From contig CANSDP010000001.1 in NCBI GenBank assembly GCA_947645675.1, positions 62,001 to 126,000 of the forward strand: a stretch of 64,000 nucleotides of DNA, read 5' to 3'. Position numbers and translations under genes: made by a program. The notes beneath the pieces were generated by a model that was not told where the DNA came from, ran no database searches, and saw only the letters and a list, made by a program, of their open reading frames with translations. The number at the start of each line of letters is the position of its first letter. Position 1 is the first letter of the stretch. Positions 46,333 to 51,533 of the stretch are shown one piece after another. This DNA is from an uncultured Bacillota bacterium (lineage in GTDB: Bacteria; Bacillota; Clostridia; Oscillospirales; Oscillospiraceae).

Positions 46333-46537
46333 GGCGCATACCTCCTGTTGTGTTTGTGGGTCCTTTCTTCCAGATTATAACACAACATGGGCGGTCACGC
46401 AAGGGCTGAAACGTCCAGTGGTTGGGGCTGCCCGGGTAAACTGGATAGCCGTCAAAAGGAAAGGCCTGGCCAGAAGTGGTGGACACCATGGGGTTGGCGG
46501 ACCGGTCATACCGGAAAGAGTCCTGGTAATAGACCAT

Positions 46538-46757
46538 CTACCGGCCGGCCTGCTCCACCCCCAACAGCCAGCCCACCGGGAGGGAGAAAATTTTGCTCAG
46601 CGTAATCAGCTTGTCGATCTCGGGCAGGGAGGCGTCCGACTCCCACTTATAAATCGCCTGCCGGGACACCCCCAGCCGCTCACCCAGGCCCTCCTGAGAC
46701 AGGCCCAACTCCTTGCGCTTCTGGGCGACGCTTGTGATATCGTCGTTCGCGTCCCGG
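46538..46757 (-). pseudogene. XRE-type HTH regulator fragment lacking a recognisable N-terminal start
   Basis: Minus frame: AQKRKELGLSQEGLGERLGVSRQAIYKWESDASLPEIDKLITLSKIFSLPVGWLLGVEQAGR*. Confidence 0.65.
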
Positions 46758-46788
46758 GTGATTTTAATATTGACGGTCGGGGGACAGT

Positions 46789-48216
46789 TTACCGCTCCGC
46801 CTCCCGCCGTTTCTGCCGGGTCTGCTCCTGCTGGTGTATGGTGGCATCGGTGTTCCGCTTCACCTGTTGGAATTTCCGCAGATCGTCCTGGATGGGCTTA
46901 TACTGCTCATACTCGGCCTGGTACCCTTGGTGAAGCCTCGCCTGCTCCTGTTCCCACGCATGGGCGGGGATTTTGCCAGCAGGGGAACGGTGCTTGTCCA
47001 GCTTCCGGCGGCCCATGTGGAACGTCCTCAGCTCGCCCTCATGCTCCCTCTCGAAGTTTTCCAGCTTGCCCTTCCACTTGATACCCTTCCACTCGTCATA
47101 GATGGGCTTGGTGTCCCGGTAAAGGTCAACAAGGCGAAGCAGTTCCTTCGACTCGTTCAGACGGTCGCGCTTTGCTTTCATGGACGTATTGATGGCCTCC
47201 GCCCGCTCACCCTGGGCGGCGATATGGGCCTCCAAATCATCCAGCGTGGCGATGCCCTTCTCGGTCAGAAAATTGACGGCCTCGGCAAAATCTTTGAGGT
47301 TTCCAATCCTGGCGTTGTGGCTCCATGCGACCGCGTTCCTGCCTTCATAGTAGCTGGTCAGCAGGGCGGCAAGTGTCGGGGCCTGGGGCTGGCTCAATTC
47401 TTCTTTTATGGCCTTTATCCAGTCCGTCAGGCCGGCAATTTTCTTCCGAATGTCCCGCAGAATATTGTTGGCCTTTCTTATCCAGCGGTTCAAATCGCCC
47501 TTGTCGGTGGGGATGCCCTTGGCCTCCATCTGACGGACGGCAACGCCCTCATGGACAGTAGGCAGCAGGTCAAGGCCCTGCCGCTCATAGGAGCGGTGGT
47601 CGATGCGGCACGTCAGCCCCTTTTCCTCAAACTTGGCGTTCACCATAGCGGCCCACGCCTCCCGCCAATGCTCCAATGTTTCCGGGCTTCCCCAGTTGGT
47701 AGTGGGAACAGCGTCAAAGAGGGGCTTGCCGTCCTCCTTGTCAGGCTGGTGGATGGCGAAGTCGGCAACCATGCCCCGGCCCACAAGCTGCTCGGACACA
47801 AATTGCCTTGCAAGAGCGATGTTTTCCTCCAAAGAAAATTCGTTCTGCAAAGCAATGTCAAAGCTATATTCAAGCTGGGCTTTCTTGCCGCGCTCGGCCT
47901 TCTCTACGGCGTTCCATAGGGTGGCGCGGTTCACTAAGGCGGCAACTTCCGTCAGGGAAAAGACCTTTTCCATCAAAAGAAAAAAGGCCCTTTCGCTCAT
48001 GTTTCGTATTTCCGGGACGATGCTCTCCACCGCTCCGCCACGGGTGATAAGGCGGTGATTTCGCTTCTTCCTATCGCCCTGGGTGTAGTAGCGGATGCAG
48101 TTCTCATACCGCTGGCCCCGGTGCTGGTACTGCTCCAGCTTGGCGGTGGCCTCGGCATACTCCTTTTCCAATTCCTCGCGTGATTTGTCCATCGTATTTG
48201 ATCTCCTTCTTGGCAA
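46789..48216 (-). CDS. Chimeric DUF3847-MobA/MobL relaxase-like protein, apparently lacking the HUH motif
   Basis: DUF3847-like N-terminus (EYAEATAKLEQYQHRGQRYENCIRYYTQGDRKKRNHRLITRGGAVES); MobL-like ATLWNAVEKAERGKKAQLEYSFDIALQNEFSLEENIALARQFVSEQ...FDAVPTTNWGSPETLEHWREAW; no NPHxHxM-like segment. Confidence 0.72.
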   Translation of the reverse strand: MPRRRSNTMDKSREELEKEYAEATAKLEQYQHRGQRYENCIRYYTQGDRKKRNHRLITRGGAVESIVPEIRNMSERAFFLLMEKVFSLTEVAALVNRATLWNAVEKAERGKKAQLEYSFDIALQNEFSLEENIALARQFVSEQLVGRGMVADFAIHQPDKEDGKPLFDAVPTTNWGSPETLEHWREAWAAMVNAKFEEKGLTCRIDHRSYERQGLDLLPTVHEGVAVRQMEAKGIPTDKGDLNRWIRKANNILRDIRKKIAGLTDWIKAIKEELSQPQAPTLAALLTSYYEGRNAVAWSHNARIGNLKDFAEAVNFLTEKGIATLDDLEAHIAAQGERAEAINTSMKAKRDRLNESKELLRLVDLYRDTKPIYDEWKGIKWKGKLENFEREHEGELRTFHMGRRKLDKHRSPAGKIPAHAWEQEQARLHQGYQAEYEQYKPIQDDLRKFQQVKRNTDATIHQQEQTRQKRREAER

Positions 48217-48278
48217 AATAAAGACCGTCTACCTGCTGTGTCGGGTAAACGGTCAAGGGTGACAGTATTCGGTTTTAG

Positions 48279-48488
48279 CCTCGCCGGAAAGGTGCGGGCG
48301 GGTCGCGGGTGTACCTTTCCAGCGAGGGTGCAGGGATAGCCGCGAAGCGGCGCAAGGGGTGCAGCCCCTTGTAGGTCGCGGAGCGACGCAAACAGCCCGG
48401 ACTTTCAGAAGTCCGGGCCGTAACCTCGCAGAGCGCACGCTACATGGTCGCAGACCATGTATAGAAGTGCGCCCTTTGTTCCAAAGGG
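48279..48488. repeat. Array of seven consecutive perfect or near-perfect hairpins
   Basis: Arms read directly: 48279-48327, 48339-48351, 48354-48370, 48375-48387, 48395-48418, 48433-48472 (nested 48441-48461), 48472-48488. Confidence 0.85.
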
Positions 48489-48528
48489 ATTTTTAACTCC
48501 CCGATAAACTGGAAGTTGTGATGTTTCA

Positions 48529-48795
48529 TTATTTAAGTAACAAAGAATTAACTTGTTCAATAACCTCCGCTTCAGAAATATCATACGCCATTAAGTCAAC
48601 ATCTTCAAAACCATAATTTGATGCGTATGAACGATTATCAGTCCACTCTAATACCCACCAGTTTTGAAGAAAGGTTACTTTGAAAAAATTACCGTTCAGT
48701 GTCCAACATTCGCCAGATGCCTGTAGTTCAATTTTATCAGCATCAAGTTCCAAAAAGCGTTTTTCACAAATTGTTTTGATTTCATCTTTAGTCAT
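48529..48795 (-). CDS. Small AT-rich hypothetical protein
   Basis: MTKDEIKTICEKRFLELDADKIELQASGECWTLNGNFFKVTF...; upstream start at 48834 also possible. Confidence 0.55.
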   Translation of the reverse strand: MTKDEIKTICEKRFLELDADKIELQASGECWTLNGNFFKVTFLQNWWVLEWTDNRSYASNYGFEDVDLMAYDISEAEVIEQVNSLLLK

Positions 48796-48826
48796 ATAAC
48801 TACCATCTTTACAAATGGAGATATAT

Positions 48827-49315
48827 CTATACAAGGAAATACAATACCTCTCTTATATCTTTCCCACCGATATTATCATCCCGAAATACTTCCGAATAAA
48901 TAAATCCGTTTTTTTCATAAAATTTTCTTGCTCTATGATTATCCTCCAAAACCCATAAAAGCACTTTACTAAATCCGCATTGTTTTAATTCTTTAATACA
49001 CTTGTTAAGCAATAACCTACCGTATCCTTTTCCAATGTAATCAGGCAAAAAATATATGGAAACGATTTCTCCATATTCGCTGTATTTTTTCCATCTTGAT
49101 TTACAGAAACTTGCAGTACCTATAAGACTCCCATGTTCTATCAGAACAAGGTTATTCATACCAATTTTATTGATACTATTAGCCCATTGTCCCGTTGGAA
49201 TACTATTAAGATAGTTTTGCGGAATAATGTTTTTATATGCGTATTTCCAACTACTTTCATATATTTTACTTATTTCAAGAGGATTATCATCTTTGGTGAT
49301 GTATCTAATTTCCAT
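48827..49315 (-). CDS. GNAT family N-acetyltransferase
   Basis: IVSIYFLPDYIGKGYGRLLLNKCIKELKQCGFSKVLLWVLEDNHRARKFYEKNGF. Confidence 0.88.
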   Translation of the reverse strand: MEIRYITKDDNPLEISKIYESSWKYAYKNIIPQNYLNSIPTGQWANSINKIGMNNLVLIEHGSLIGTASFCKSRWKKYSEYGEIVSIYFLPDYIGKGYGRLLLNKCIKELKQCGFSKVLLWVLEDNHRARKFYEKNGFIYSEVFRDDNIGGKDIREVLYFLV

Positions 49316-49524
49316 TTCAATAACTCCTTAAATGCTTATTTGTCGAGTTGTATCCATGACGAGTATAGCACAACAGCGCAACCAAATCAACCAGCCGGAG
49401 AGGAAACTTTCTTGGACTCCTTTGCGGCCCGCTGTGCCTCCCTCACCCGGCGCATACAAGGCCCGTCCACTGAAAAAAGTAGTGGACGCGACCGCATGGC
49501 TGTGGTAGAATGAAGTGAAAGAAG

Positions 49525-50475
49525 GTGAGAACGGTGGACGGGGAAACGACAATCGCCCAGGGACTGCACGTCACGGATGACAGCGCGGGCTATGACGCTG
49601 CCTGCAAGCGTGTCCTATCTGAAAAGGCAATCTTGGCGCGGATTATGAAGTCCTGCCTGGAAGAATACAAGGATTGCGATGTCAATGACATTGCCGAGAA
49701 GTACATAGAGGGCAAACCCCAGGTGTCCGCCGTCCCGGTGCTGCCGGACGAGGGCGGCACAGTCATCAGCGGTATGGACACCGAGGACAAATCTGTGCAT
49801 GAGGGGACAGTCACCTATGACATTCGTTTCCGGGCCATCGTCCCCGGCTCCGAGGAACAAATTGCCCTCATCATCAACGTGGAGGCGCAGAACGATTTTT
49901 ACCCCGGCTATCCGCTGATAAAGCGCGGCATATACTACTGTTGCCGGATGATTTCTTCCCAGTATGGCAGGGAGTTCACCGGCCCCCACTATGAGAAAAT
50001 CAAGAAGGTCTACTCCATCTGGATTTGCATGAAACCGCCGCAGTATCGGGAGAACACCATCACCCGGTATCGGCTGGTGGAGGAACACCTGGTAGGCGAG
50101 GGCAAAGAACCCATCAGGAATTATGATTTGCTGTCCATCATTATGCTGTGCCTTGGCGGGCCGGATGGGGCAAACTATGACGGCGTACTGCGGATGCTGG
50201 ACGTGCTTCTCTCCAACGAAACCAGCGAGGCGGAGAAGCGGAAGATTTTGCAGGACGATTACGACATACAAATGACGCAGACAATGGAAAGGGAGGTGTC
50301 GGTCATGTGCAATCTAAGCAAGGGCGTTAGGGAGATGGGCCGCGCTGACGGTATCTTATCCTCTCTCAAAAACCTAATGGAAACGATGGGCCTGACCATT
50401 GAGCAGGCTATGGCGGCTCTGAAAGTCCCGGAGGGCGAACGTCAGAAATATATGGATTTGCTGGAGCGGCAGTAA
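49525..50475 (+). CDS. Rpn-type PD-(D/E)XK nuclease / putative transposase
   Basis: VTYDIRFRAIVPGSEEQIALIINVEAQNDFYPGYPLIKRGIYYCCRMISSQ matches the D..E.Q nuclease core. Confidence 0.8.
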   Translation: MRTVDGETTIAQGLHVTDDSAGYDAACKRVLSEKAILARIMKSCLEEYKDCDVNDIAEKYIEGKPQVSAVPVLPDEGGTVISGMDTEDKSVHEGTVTYDIRFRAIVPGSEEQIALIINVEAQNDFYPGYPLIKRGIYYCCRMISSQYGREFTGPHYEKIKKVYSIWICMKPPQYRENTITRYRLVEEHLVGEGKEPIRNYDLLSIIMLCLGGPDGANYDGVLRMLDVLLSNETSEAEKRKILQDDYDIQMTQTMEREVSVMCNLSKGVREMGRADGILSSLKNLMETMGLTIEQAMAALKVPEGERQKYMDLLERQ

Positions 50476-50478
50476 CAA

Positions 50479-50515
50479 CGAAAACGCCACGGACTACTAT
50501 TGTCCCTGGCGTTTT
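50479..50515. terminator. Bidirectional terminator
   Basis: gaaaacgccacggac...gtccctggcgttttc. Confidence 0.65.
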
Positions 50516-50526
50516 CTGTATCCGCT

Positions 50527-51222
50527 TTAGCTGGCTTGGACGGCTTTGGCCTCGGCCTGTTTCTTCCTGTGGTAGTTCTCCCGCCTTACGGCAAGGAAAC
50601 GCTCATACCGGGCCTGGGCAAGTGCCTGAGAGCGTTTCTCTTTCTCGGCCTGTTCCTCCTGCTGGCGGCGTTCTTCCTCCTGCTCCATGGGGGGTACAAT
50701 GTCGGCGGGGACCTCAAATGCGCCGATAAAATTGAAGTAAAAATCCAACCGCTGACGGCGCTGTTTGCCTCATACAGCTTCTTCACCAATCCGTCCAGTT
50801 CGGCGTGGCGCTTCTTCGCCGTGGTGGGTCAGCTTCGCGCCGCAGTCGGCGCAGTAGAGCAATCCGGTCAGATGGTTGGGGCCGCTGCTCCGCTTGGGTG
50901 TCCGGCGCATGGTTTCCCGCAAACGCTGAACATTGTGCCACGTTTCCTCGTCAATGATGGCAGGGACGGCTCCCTCGAATACAAATTGTTCCTCCGATGC
51001 TGTCCTGCGGGTGCTTTTGGCCTTGATATAGACCGCCGCACGGATACAGGCCGCGCCAGTCAGACCCACAAGAAGGTCCTGGGGGTGGAAGCTGGGGAGA
51101 GGGTTGCGGGATATGATCTCCCCCAGGCTGGAAATTGCCCCCATGCTCTTTGCCGCCACATCTGCGCCAGCGGCCAGCCGGTAGCCCTCGCCCACGCGGT
51201 TGAAGAACCAGAAGATGAACAC
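50527..51222 (-). pseudogene. Large serine recombinase C-terminal remnant (TnpX/TndX-like), frameshifted
   Basis: HNVQRLRETMRRTPKRSSGPNHLTGLLYCADCGAKLTHH zinc ribbon, then VKKLYEANSA in another frame and FNFIGAFEVPADIVPPMEQEEERRQQEEQ tail. Confidence 0.72.
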
Positions 51223-51533
51223 AATAGAGAAACGGGAAGAGATCAGGAACGATCCTCAGCTTTCCGCCATTGACTACCGCATCAACCGCAGGCCCGGCCG
51301 CTTGCCCAGGGTTTCAGACAATTGCCATTGATTGGGAGCGGCATATTGAGAACCGCAAATCTTCCGTACGCTGCAAGGTGGAACACCCCTACCGAATTGT
51401 GAAGAGCCTATTTGGCTTCCGAAAGACCGTGTACCGGGGATTGAGAAAAAACCTCAACCGATTACACGTGCTCTTCGCCAGCGCAAATCTGTATATGTTT
51501 GCCAGAGCGGGCGGTTCACTCCGGCCCGCATAG
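51209..51533 (+). pseudogene. IS5-family transposase C-terminal remnant
   Basis: MNTIEKREEIRNDPQLSAIDYRINRRPGRLP then frame change to IDWERHIENRKSSVRCKVEHPYRIVKSLFGFRKTVYRGLRKNLNRLHVLFASANLYM. Confidence 0.78.

Follow-up and report, generated by a model that had tools for sequence, protein, structure and literature searches.

What is the function of seven hairpins that follow one another with almost no spacer, between the remains of a relaxase gene and an AT-rich cargo? The question is raised by the array at 48279-48488 of the window, as we call the whole stretch of 64,000 nucleotides analysed here, for which an earlier note had offered two kinds of answer, a site that acts as single-stranded DNA (an oriT, a single-strand origin or a recombinase site) or a multi-stem RNA. 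All seven palindromes are present there and fold as the note had drawn them, and the space that separates the array from the mob genes holds an eighth hairpin, which it had missed, shortly before the start codon of DUF3847 (48192). This last hairpin is not among the matches of a consensus terminator scanner. As single-stranded DNA, the region 48216-48529 folds with -75.3 kcal/mol. Its dinucleotide shuffles average -50.4 ± 4.1 kcal/mol, and none of 100 reaches the native value (z -6.1). The features of the locus are collected in Table 1.

Table 1. Features of the hairpin array and its surroundings, in window positions.
Feature	Position	Strand	Remarks
Decayed mob gene (in-frame fusion of DUF3847 with MobA/MobL)	46789-48192	-	
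Eighth hairpin, GACCGTTTACCCG..CAGGTAGACGGTC then TTTATTTT	48223-48254	-	intrinsic-terminator-like, by eye
hp1, CCTCGC..GGAAAGGT / ACCTTTCC..GCGAGG	48279-48327	+	large hairpin
hp2, GCCGC-GAA-GCGGC	48339-48351	+	conserved GGGATA before it; 4 of 5 pairs covary
hp3, CAAGGGG-TGCAG-CCCCTTG	48353-48371	+	6 of 7 pairs covary; 96.6% paired
hp4, GTCGC-GGA-GCGAC	48375-48387	+	not conserved
hp5, GCCCGGACTT-TCAG-AAGTCCGGGC	48395-48418	+	9 of 9 modelled pairs covary; 92.9% paired
hp6, outer GCGCAC/GTGCGC, inner TACATGGTC-GCA-GACCATGTA	48433-48472	+	nic-proximal inverted repeat of the putative oriT
MOBQ nic motif, AAGTGCGCCCT	48465-48475	+	predicted cut between 48471 (G) and 48472 (C)
hp7, CCCTTTG-TTC-CAAAGGG	48472-48488	+	first bases of the predicted transferred strand; 82% paired
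Dyad, GATAAACTGGAAGTTGTG	48503-48520	+	flanked by hp7 and the stop codon of the cargo; other copies have related dyads at this place
AT-rich cargo, two genes	48529-49315	-	both reading toward the array
Cargo gene 1, 101-aa ORF	48529-48834	-	no function assigned
Cargo gene 2, GNAT acetyltransferase	48827-49315	-	
Candidate second dyad, AAATGCTTATTTGTCGAG	49330-49347	+	lies upstream of the cargo; by eye, resembles AAATTCCGATTTGT weakly
Large serine recombinase fragment (Recombinase and Zn-ribbon domains)	50770-51222	-	

The array is neither unique to this locus nor free of compensatory change in its stems, the two outcomes that the note had named as speaking against a function. A DNA search found it, whole or in part, in 54 of 251 genomes of the window's family, and a covariance model, R1 (158 positions, built from 14 rows), found it in 71 of these 251 and, in a sample of 392 genomes of the class, in 23. 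In 94 aligned arrays from Clostridia (88 distinct), 89.8% of the cells are paired and 36 of the 42 pairs have changed on both sides, with 418 double-change cells against a shuffle mean of 120 and a covariation score of 0.308 against 0.037-0.059 for structures with slid partners. Since this alignment was fitted to R1, a 14-row MAFFT alignment is the cleaner check, and there 16 pairs covary, with 31 double-change cells compared with 7.1 and 10.0 in shuffles (0/500). Because hp5 and hp6 vary in length, RNAalifold was misled into a long-range fold on a mixed alignment (A1), which was replaced by a type-A alignment (A2) and a hairpin-by-hairpin structure.

Across the 94 homologues, compensatory change maintains hp2 (94.7% of cells paired), hp3, hp5, hp6 and hp7; a hairpin also stands at the place of hp1, with a wholly different sequence, and AGYGACGCAAA(A)CA, just 3΄ of hp4, is conserved and unpaired. 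The fourth hairpin does not belong to the general design and is mostly peculiar to the window copy (a stem of at least 4 bp in only 15 of 88 homologues). The weight given to GNA loops and to the GCGAAGC mini-hairpin finds no support in the homologues either: the loops GAA, GCA, GGA and GCA are present in the window and are not conserved elsewhere. Of 88 homologues, 13 have a GNA triloop in hp2 and 11 have GNNA there, and the loop rule that holds is a final A (76 of 88).

Is the array selected as RNA or as DNA? In a stem that evolves as RNA, G-U intermediates accumulate on the functional strand. We restricted the count to internal pairs with Watson-Crick pairs on either side and found 32 G-T and 50 A-C cells in the array (27 vs 38 distinct helix variants, p = 0.21), whereas the small SRP RNA of the same genome family gave 31 G-U and 1 A-C by the same rule. 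G-T cells are about as frequent as A-C cells in the array, against 31:1 in the SRP RNA, so that selection acts on DNA and not on RNA, and the multi-stem RNA of the note is disfavoured by this matched control. (A raw count on the covariance-model alignment, 112:117, was superseded by the present one to avoid alignment bias.) A structured RNA in the mob or cargo transcripts of the minus strand, be it a leader, an attenuator or a 3΄ UTR, would agree with the strong RNA fold of the region 48216-48529 (z -6.1 on the plus and -7.5 on the minus strand), with the reading of both mob and cargo genes through the array on the minus strand, and with the terminator-like stem that precedes DUF3847. However, neither strand has the G-U excess of an RNA, a search of Rfam with the array gave no match beyond chance at gathering or permissive thresholds (a radC match of 13 bits, E 3.5, was dismissed as chance), hp1, hp5 and hp6 change their sequence freely, and the array is kept in copies without any mob gene; we regard such an RNA as very improbable.

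The kind of DNA site is suggested by the right part of the array, where hp6 and hp7 (48433-48488) have the form of a MOBQ-type nic region, with AAGTGCG^CCCTT at 48465. In the reference sequence of pSK41 the nic stretch is GCACGCGAACGGAACGTTCGCATAAGTGCGCCCTTACGGGATTTAAC, and the geometry, a hairpin, then the matching part ATAAGTGCGCCCTT, then a gene for a relaxase of the MobA/MobL family on the opposite strand reading away, is identical in the window. Cleavage in pIP501 occurs at a GpC dinucleotide (PMC4981023), which, taken with the pSK41 match, leads us to predict the nic at 48471^48472 and the plus strand as the transferred one, a short motif and its context being the basis of the prediction. 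hp7 starts exactly at the predicted nic, base 48472 being common to hp7 and the outer stem of hp6, and since it is followed by ATTTTT it is also terminator-like on the plus strand. AAGTGCGCC is present in 78 of the 94 homologous arrays and the nic core AAGTGCGCCC in 62; this core stands beside an inverted repeat, and a cognate MobA/MobL (MobQ) relaxase is encoded nearby, as in a MOBQ oriT, the relaxase of the window copy being degenerate. MobQ or DUF3847 lies near 44 of the 94 arrays, mostly in one fixed geometry. The nic match, these neighbours and the covarying stems support the view, already an option of the note, that the array is a MOBQ-type origin of transfer. Tn1549 was considered as the closest relative and dropped, its relaxase being reported as MOBP (PMC6856555) and that of the family being MobQ by NCBIfam, a comparison of classes and not of sequences.

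It could be argued that only hp6, nic and hp7 make up this oriT, and that hp1-hp5 lie beside it by chance, as transcription terminators or as palindromes bound by proteins in double-stranded form. Equal G-T and A-C would suit symmetric duplex palindromes, and a purely plus-strand, single-stranded role of hp1-hp5 might predict a slight excess of G-T over A-C, which is not seen; terminators would fit the short minus-strand T run after hp5 in many homologues (AAAACA before hp5 on the plus strand) and the obvious terminator at the left end of the small elements described below. Yet the sequences of hp1, hp5 and hp6 have turned over in a way that is incompatible with a protein reading the duplex, and both the single-stranded spacers and the fixed order next to nic are conserved, which makes a chance neighbourhood unlikely.

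In the window the mob genes have decayed. The relaxase remnant that the note had recognised left of the array is indeed one: its MobA/MobL match starts only at profile position 45, and compared with an intact MobQ of the family it lacks residues ~1-63 (catalytic Tyr) and 133-175 (HxH). Intact MobQ matches the pSK41 nicking enzyme structure 4HT4 across the whole catalytic domain (E 3e-26) and scores 257.9 bits with the NCBIfam MobQ equivalog (cut-off 200); the parts lost in the window correspond to the N-terminus of 4HT4, which holds the catalytic tyrosine, and to the HxH (PHFH) motif. With both regions lost, the local relaxase should be unable to nick. The AT-rich cargo on the right was also correctly described. 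The serine recombinase fragment, 2.3 kb away, may be what remains of the recombinase of the window's element or of another one, and a search of the window from 36 to 62 kb for terminal inverted repeats or a split terminator gave no convincing element ends. An integrative mobilizable element (IME) has its own recombinase, relaxase, oriT and defined ends; with a dead relaxase, only a fragment of a recombinase and no ends found, we read the window copy as a decayed IME with an intact-looking oriT.

Other remains lie around it. Right of the cargo (49525-51533), a PD-(D/E)XK transposase-family gene and a DDE transposase fragment overlap the recombinase fragment on the other strand, in a heap of mobile-element remnants. 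By eye, the interval between an NrdR-like gene and the mob remnant (46500-46800, minus strand) holds an XRE-like helix-turn-helix coding remnant with a broken frame. The same genome has a second, truncated hp1-hp3 copy (contig C25:1988-2120; L002:1501-1633), 92% identical and with no nic, between a truncated transposase start on the left and tRNA-like genes on the right, both read by eye.

About half of the arrays stand alone, with no relaxase in the vicinity: where the sequence extends for 4 kb or more to either side (56 arrays), MobQ and DUF3847 are both absent in 25. Many such orphan arrays have no recognisable ends and may be plain debris. Several variants of the surroundings were observed. 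In seven copies (L048, L050, L051, L062, L075, L140, L196) the cargo right of the array is apparently a large surface protein, judged by eye from a C-terminus with S-layer-homology-like repeats. Type B copies L067, L145, L154, L160 and L151 carry 0.6-0.9 kb of extra DNA between the DUF3847 gene and the array, as if another cargo had entered the mob side too. In a third sub-type (L053, L056, L149, L152, L155, L194, L195) the DUF3847-like match lies on the other side of the array (~+72), with MobQ mostly directly to the left.

Where do the elements that carry the array end? In pairwise comparisons of arrays, similarity stops sharply on the left and on the right. The left limit is formed by a host gene, half of its intrinsic terminator and then GTGTCCGTAAAACAGTTAA, and the right limit by an inverted copy of this terminal repeat and then the other half of the same terminator, as in L148 (AAAAAGCGCACCCCGGATAGACGG-GTGTCCGTAAAACAGTTAA ... 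AATACTGTCTTACGTACAC-CCAGCTATATCCGGGGTGCGTTTTTT). A search for paired ends gave a first set of 12 small elements of 0.86-2.0 kb with split stems of 11-20 nt (L042, L047, L069, L073, L142, L148, L150, L153, L158, L159, L169 and L174), to which L327 (1.1 kb) is added for a total of 13; L173 (1.28 kb, with an alpha/beta hydrolase as cargo) has the same pattern by eye and was left out of the 13. Three large elements, L041 (13.9 kb), L059 (9.6 kb) and L064 (10.6 kb), have such ends too. End pairs with 9-nt stems were discarded as chance. In a control with a stricter motif and stems of at least 11 nt, own end pairs reached this length in 11 of 18 cases, compared with 0 of 18 for reversed sequence and 4 of 334 for permuted partners. 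Loci from named genomes, each of at most 8 kb, gave ends in only 2 of 80 cases, one of which (L293) repeats L042, the cassette of Flavonifractor sp. AGMB03687. L047 is inserted behind ilvC (named by eye), and the related genome of L220, 97% identical there, has an uninterrupted terminator; the two terminators differ in sequence, so that this compares orthologous positions and is not an exact empty site.

The small elements thus sit in loops of intrinsic terminators of the host, and each consists of terminal inverted repeats, the hairpin oriT and cargo, usually a single AT-rich gene. From the left, the order is terminal repeat, often a terminator of their own, hp1, array, nic, hp7, in many a short dyad, then cargo, a right-end stretch and the inverted terminal repeat. 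The cargo has 38-44% G+C, against 51-67% in the flanks, and varies in kind (CDP-alcohol phosphatidyltransferase, peptidase S51, a glyoxalase-like protein, HTH plus membrane protein); a single gene is the rule, not a law, more than one ORF being present in L047, L153, L159 and some others. The large elements have at their left end a serine recombinase of 572-579 aa (Resolvase, Recombinase, Zn-ribbon and DUF4368 domains), followed by MobQ and DUF3847; L041 and L059 also have an HTH regulator at their right end, and MobQ of L059 is truncated to 148 aa. Judged from ORF lists, no genes for a transfer channel or type IV secretion system were recognised in these 9.6-13.9 kb. L041, L064 and L059 accordingly have the recombinase, relaxase, oriT and defined ends of an IME. 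The 13 small elements have kept att ends and have no integration or transfer genes, as in a CIME, and additionally keep the oriT, which lies outside the CIME definition.

We read the small elements as non-autonomous cassettes moved in trans. Nine genomes bear them, six with a relative of MobQ and eight with a relative of the recombinase (many of the latter distant); no MobQ relative was found in the other three, some of the assemblies being incomplete. They could instead be deletion remnants of IMEs with no independent mobility: gene loss between conserved ends is a known route to CIMEs (PMC5704250), and the window itself is such a decayed copy. However, L148, L150, L153 and L069 are related and share the same terminal modules, with different cargo and different insertion sites, which movement as small units explains better than deletion, and copies without a relaxase still keep a covarying oriT, so we hold simple remnants to be rather unlikely. 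A search of open-licence papers gave no description of terminator-loop targeting by such a recombinase, nor of such cassettes, an absence that does not prove novelty.

A hairpin site conserved in structure and variable in sequence, beside a foreign, AT-rich and often single-gene cargo, also recalls the attC of integrons, and an analogous recombination site of a gene-cassette system might be proposed in place of a conjugation origin. The first ORF on the right of the array lies on the minus strand and reads toward it in 70 of 89 copies (by heuristic ORF calling), often stopping within 50 nt, and dyads flank the cargo in several copies. Against this, the nic motif is a MOBQ match and MobQ/DUF3847 are recurrent neighbours, the elements end outside the array, at separate terminal repeats, and not inside the hairpin site, the recombinase of the large elements is of the serine type and not an integron tyrosine integrase, and the copies are scattered in terminators, with no tandem cassette arrays seen. 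We consider an attC-like site quite improbable, and the array better read as an oriT.

In several copies a GACAAACTGGAAGTTGTC-like dyad follows the stop codon of the cargo and a AAATTCCGATTTGT-like one stands just before its ribosome-binding site; the latter motif occurs in 15 of 76 right flanks, some of these 15 not at a gene start, compared with 4 of 74 left-flank controls. In the window, the first dyad and a weak candidate for the second flank the two cargo genes; this candidate was not picked out by the motif search for the AAATTCCGATTTGT type. These inner dyads could be exchange sites or regulatory sites, and we take them as a lead only. Their position allows a more speculative scheme, a two-level gene-cassette system of Clostridia, which we think possible while doubting it. 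At the first level, enzyme-less elements below 2 kb, with serine-recombinase ends and a hairpin MOBQ oriT, would hop between intrinsic terminators and between cells with the aid of helper IMEs and, since each brings a terminator of its own, would leave the genes next to them unharmed. At the second level, the cargo ORF would be swapped between GACAAACTGGAAGTTGTC after the stop codon and AAATTCCGATTTGT before the ribosome-binding site, acting as integron-like exchange sites.

An exact-pattern scan of named genomes gave at least 119 stretches. The matches listed are mostly from Oscillospiraceae, Lachnospiraceae and other Clostridia, and include records titled Holdemania, Peptoniphilus, Granulicatella, Lacticaseibacillus and Bifidobacterium subtile, as well as MAGs named Desulfovibrio and Alphaproteobacteria. 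Some of the matches may stem from MAG binning or from contaminated assemblies. A search of a phage collection with the array gave no match. Campylobacter coli plasmids carry the full array with MobQ and DUF3847 beside aminoglycoside-resistance genes. One of them, pCC14983A-1 (NZ_CP017026.1, L077:6074-8239), has the complete array together with DUF3847, MobQ, TnpW, TnpV and recombinase genes and aminoglycoside phosphotransferases, and this region is a mobilizable element of Gram-positive type in a Campylobacter plasmid. In C. jejuni pTHJ057_1 (AP025984.1, L080:6001-6101), a type B oriT fragment (the part from hp5 to hp7), with no recognised relaxase, adjoins catA13, between aph(3΄)-IIIa and tet(O).

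We propose that the array, which many gut bacteria share, is very probably the oriT of a MOBQ-type IME that has decayed here, the same module being carried by IMEs of 9.6-13.9 kb, with their DUF4368 large serine recombinase, MobQ and DUF3847, and by enzyme-free terminator cassettes of 0.9-2.0 kb. From the motifs and their arrangement we infer the following course. A MobQ relaxase, which for the window would have to come in trans from a helper because the local one is dead, would bind hp6, cut the plus strand at AAGTGCG^CCC and stay on the 5΄ end. The plus strand would then leave toward the cargo side and the hairpin array would be transferred last, so that the nic hairpin would again be present, single-stranded, for rejoining in the recipient; hp6 would serve both recognition and rejoining. 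The role of hp1, hp2, hp3 and hp5 would lie in their DNA secondary structure, which would most probably provide a single-strand origin or a relaxosome platform with which the transferred strand is made double-stranded; the position of hp1-hp5 and their conservation at the DNA level are compatible with a single-strand origin (sso/ssi). The cassettes, which encode neither enzyme and must therefore borrow both recombinase and relaxase, would be excised and inserted by the helper's serine recombinase via their terminal repeats, into the loops of host intrinsic terminators.

That small relaxase-less cassettes in terminators also carry the array is not visible from the sequence of the window alone. 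With an oriT defined at the sequence level by R1, searches can now be made for mobilizable DNA that easily escapes notice, and hairpins of an oriT that evolve as DNA offer a clean contrast to a true RNA. Cassettes that lack relaxase and recombinase and enter terminators would provide a directly testable route for the spread of single genes among gut Clostridia, and the same route could spread resistance genes too.

How does this system compare with those already known? With the MOBQ oriTs of pSK41 (nes) and pIP501 (traA) it shares an inverted repeat followed by AAGTGCG^CCCT and a relaxase of the MobA/MobL family, and, as in MOBQ (IncQ-type) oriTs, the nic lies on the strand opposite the relaxase gene; the nic of RSF1010 (mobA) is presumably of the same kind. 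In pSK41, however, the stretch examined has one hairpin before nic, whereas here there is a multi-hairpin array of ~200 bp, conserved across genera. The large elements resemble IMEs and ICEs of the Tn4451/Tn5397 type in their large serine recombinase with Resolvase, Recombinase, Zn-ribbon and DUF4368 domains, which we take to be kin to TnpX/TndX, and differ from them in the module of MobQ plus DUF3847 and in the insertion in intrinsic terminator loops. Tn4451 is described as recombining at 2-bp identities (PMC5704250), and the word terminator does not occur in that source. Similarly to CIMEs and to relaxase-less IMEs and MGIs (MTnSag1, tISCpe8, SXT-related MGIs), the cassettes would depend on other elements, and MTnSag1 and tISCpe8, with 1.7-2.0 kb, are of similar size (PMC5704250). 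MTnSag1, in contrast, has a DDE transposase gene of its own, and its oriT is unrelated; a CIME is by definition an element that has lost its integration and transfer genes and retained its att sites, whereas the cassettes, without recombinase and relaxase, have a full covarying oriT and both ends. The sequences thus point to a known kind of element, an IME or CIME with a MOBQ oriT, in which the hairpin array as the putative transfer origin of enzyme-free, terminator-inserted cassettes would be the new part.
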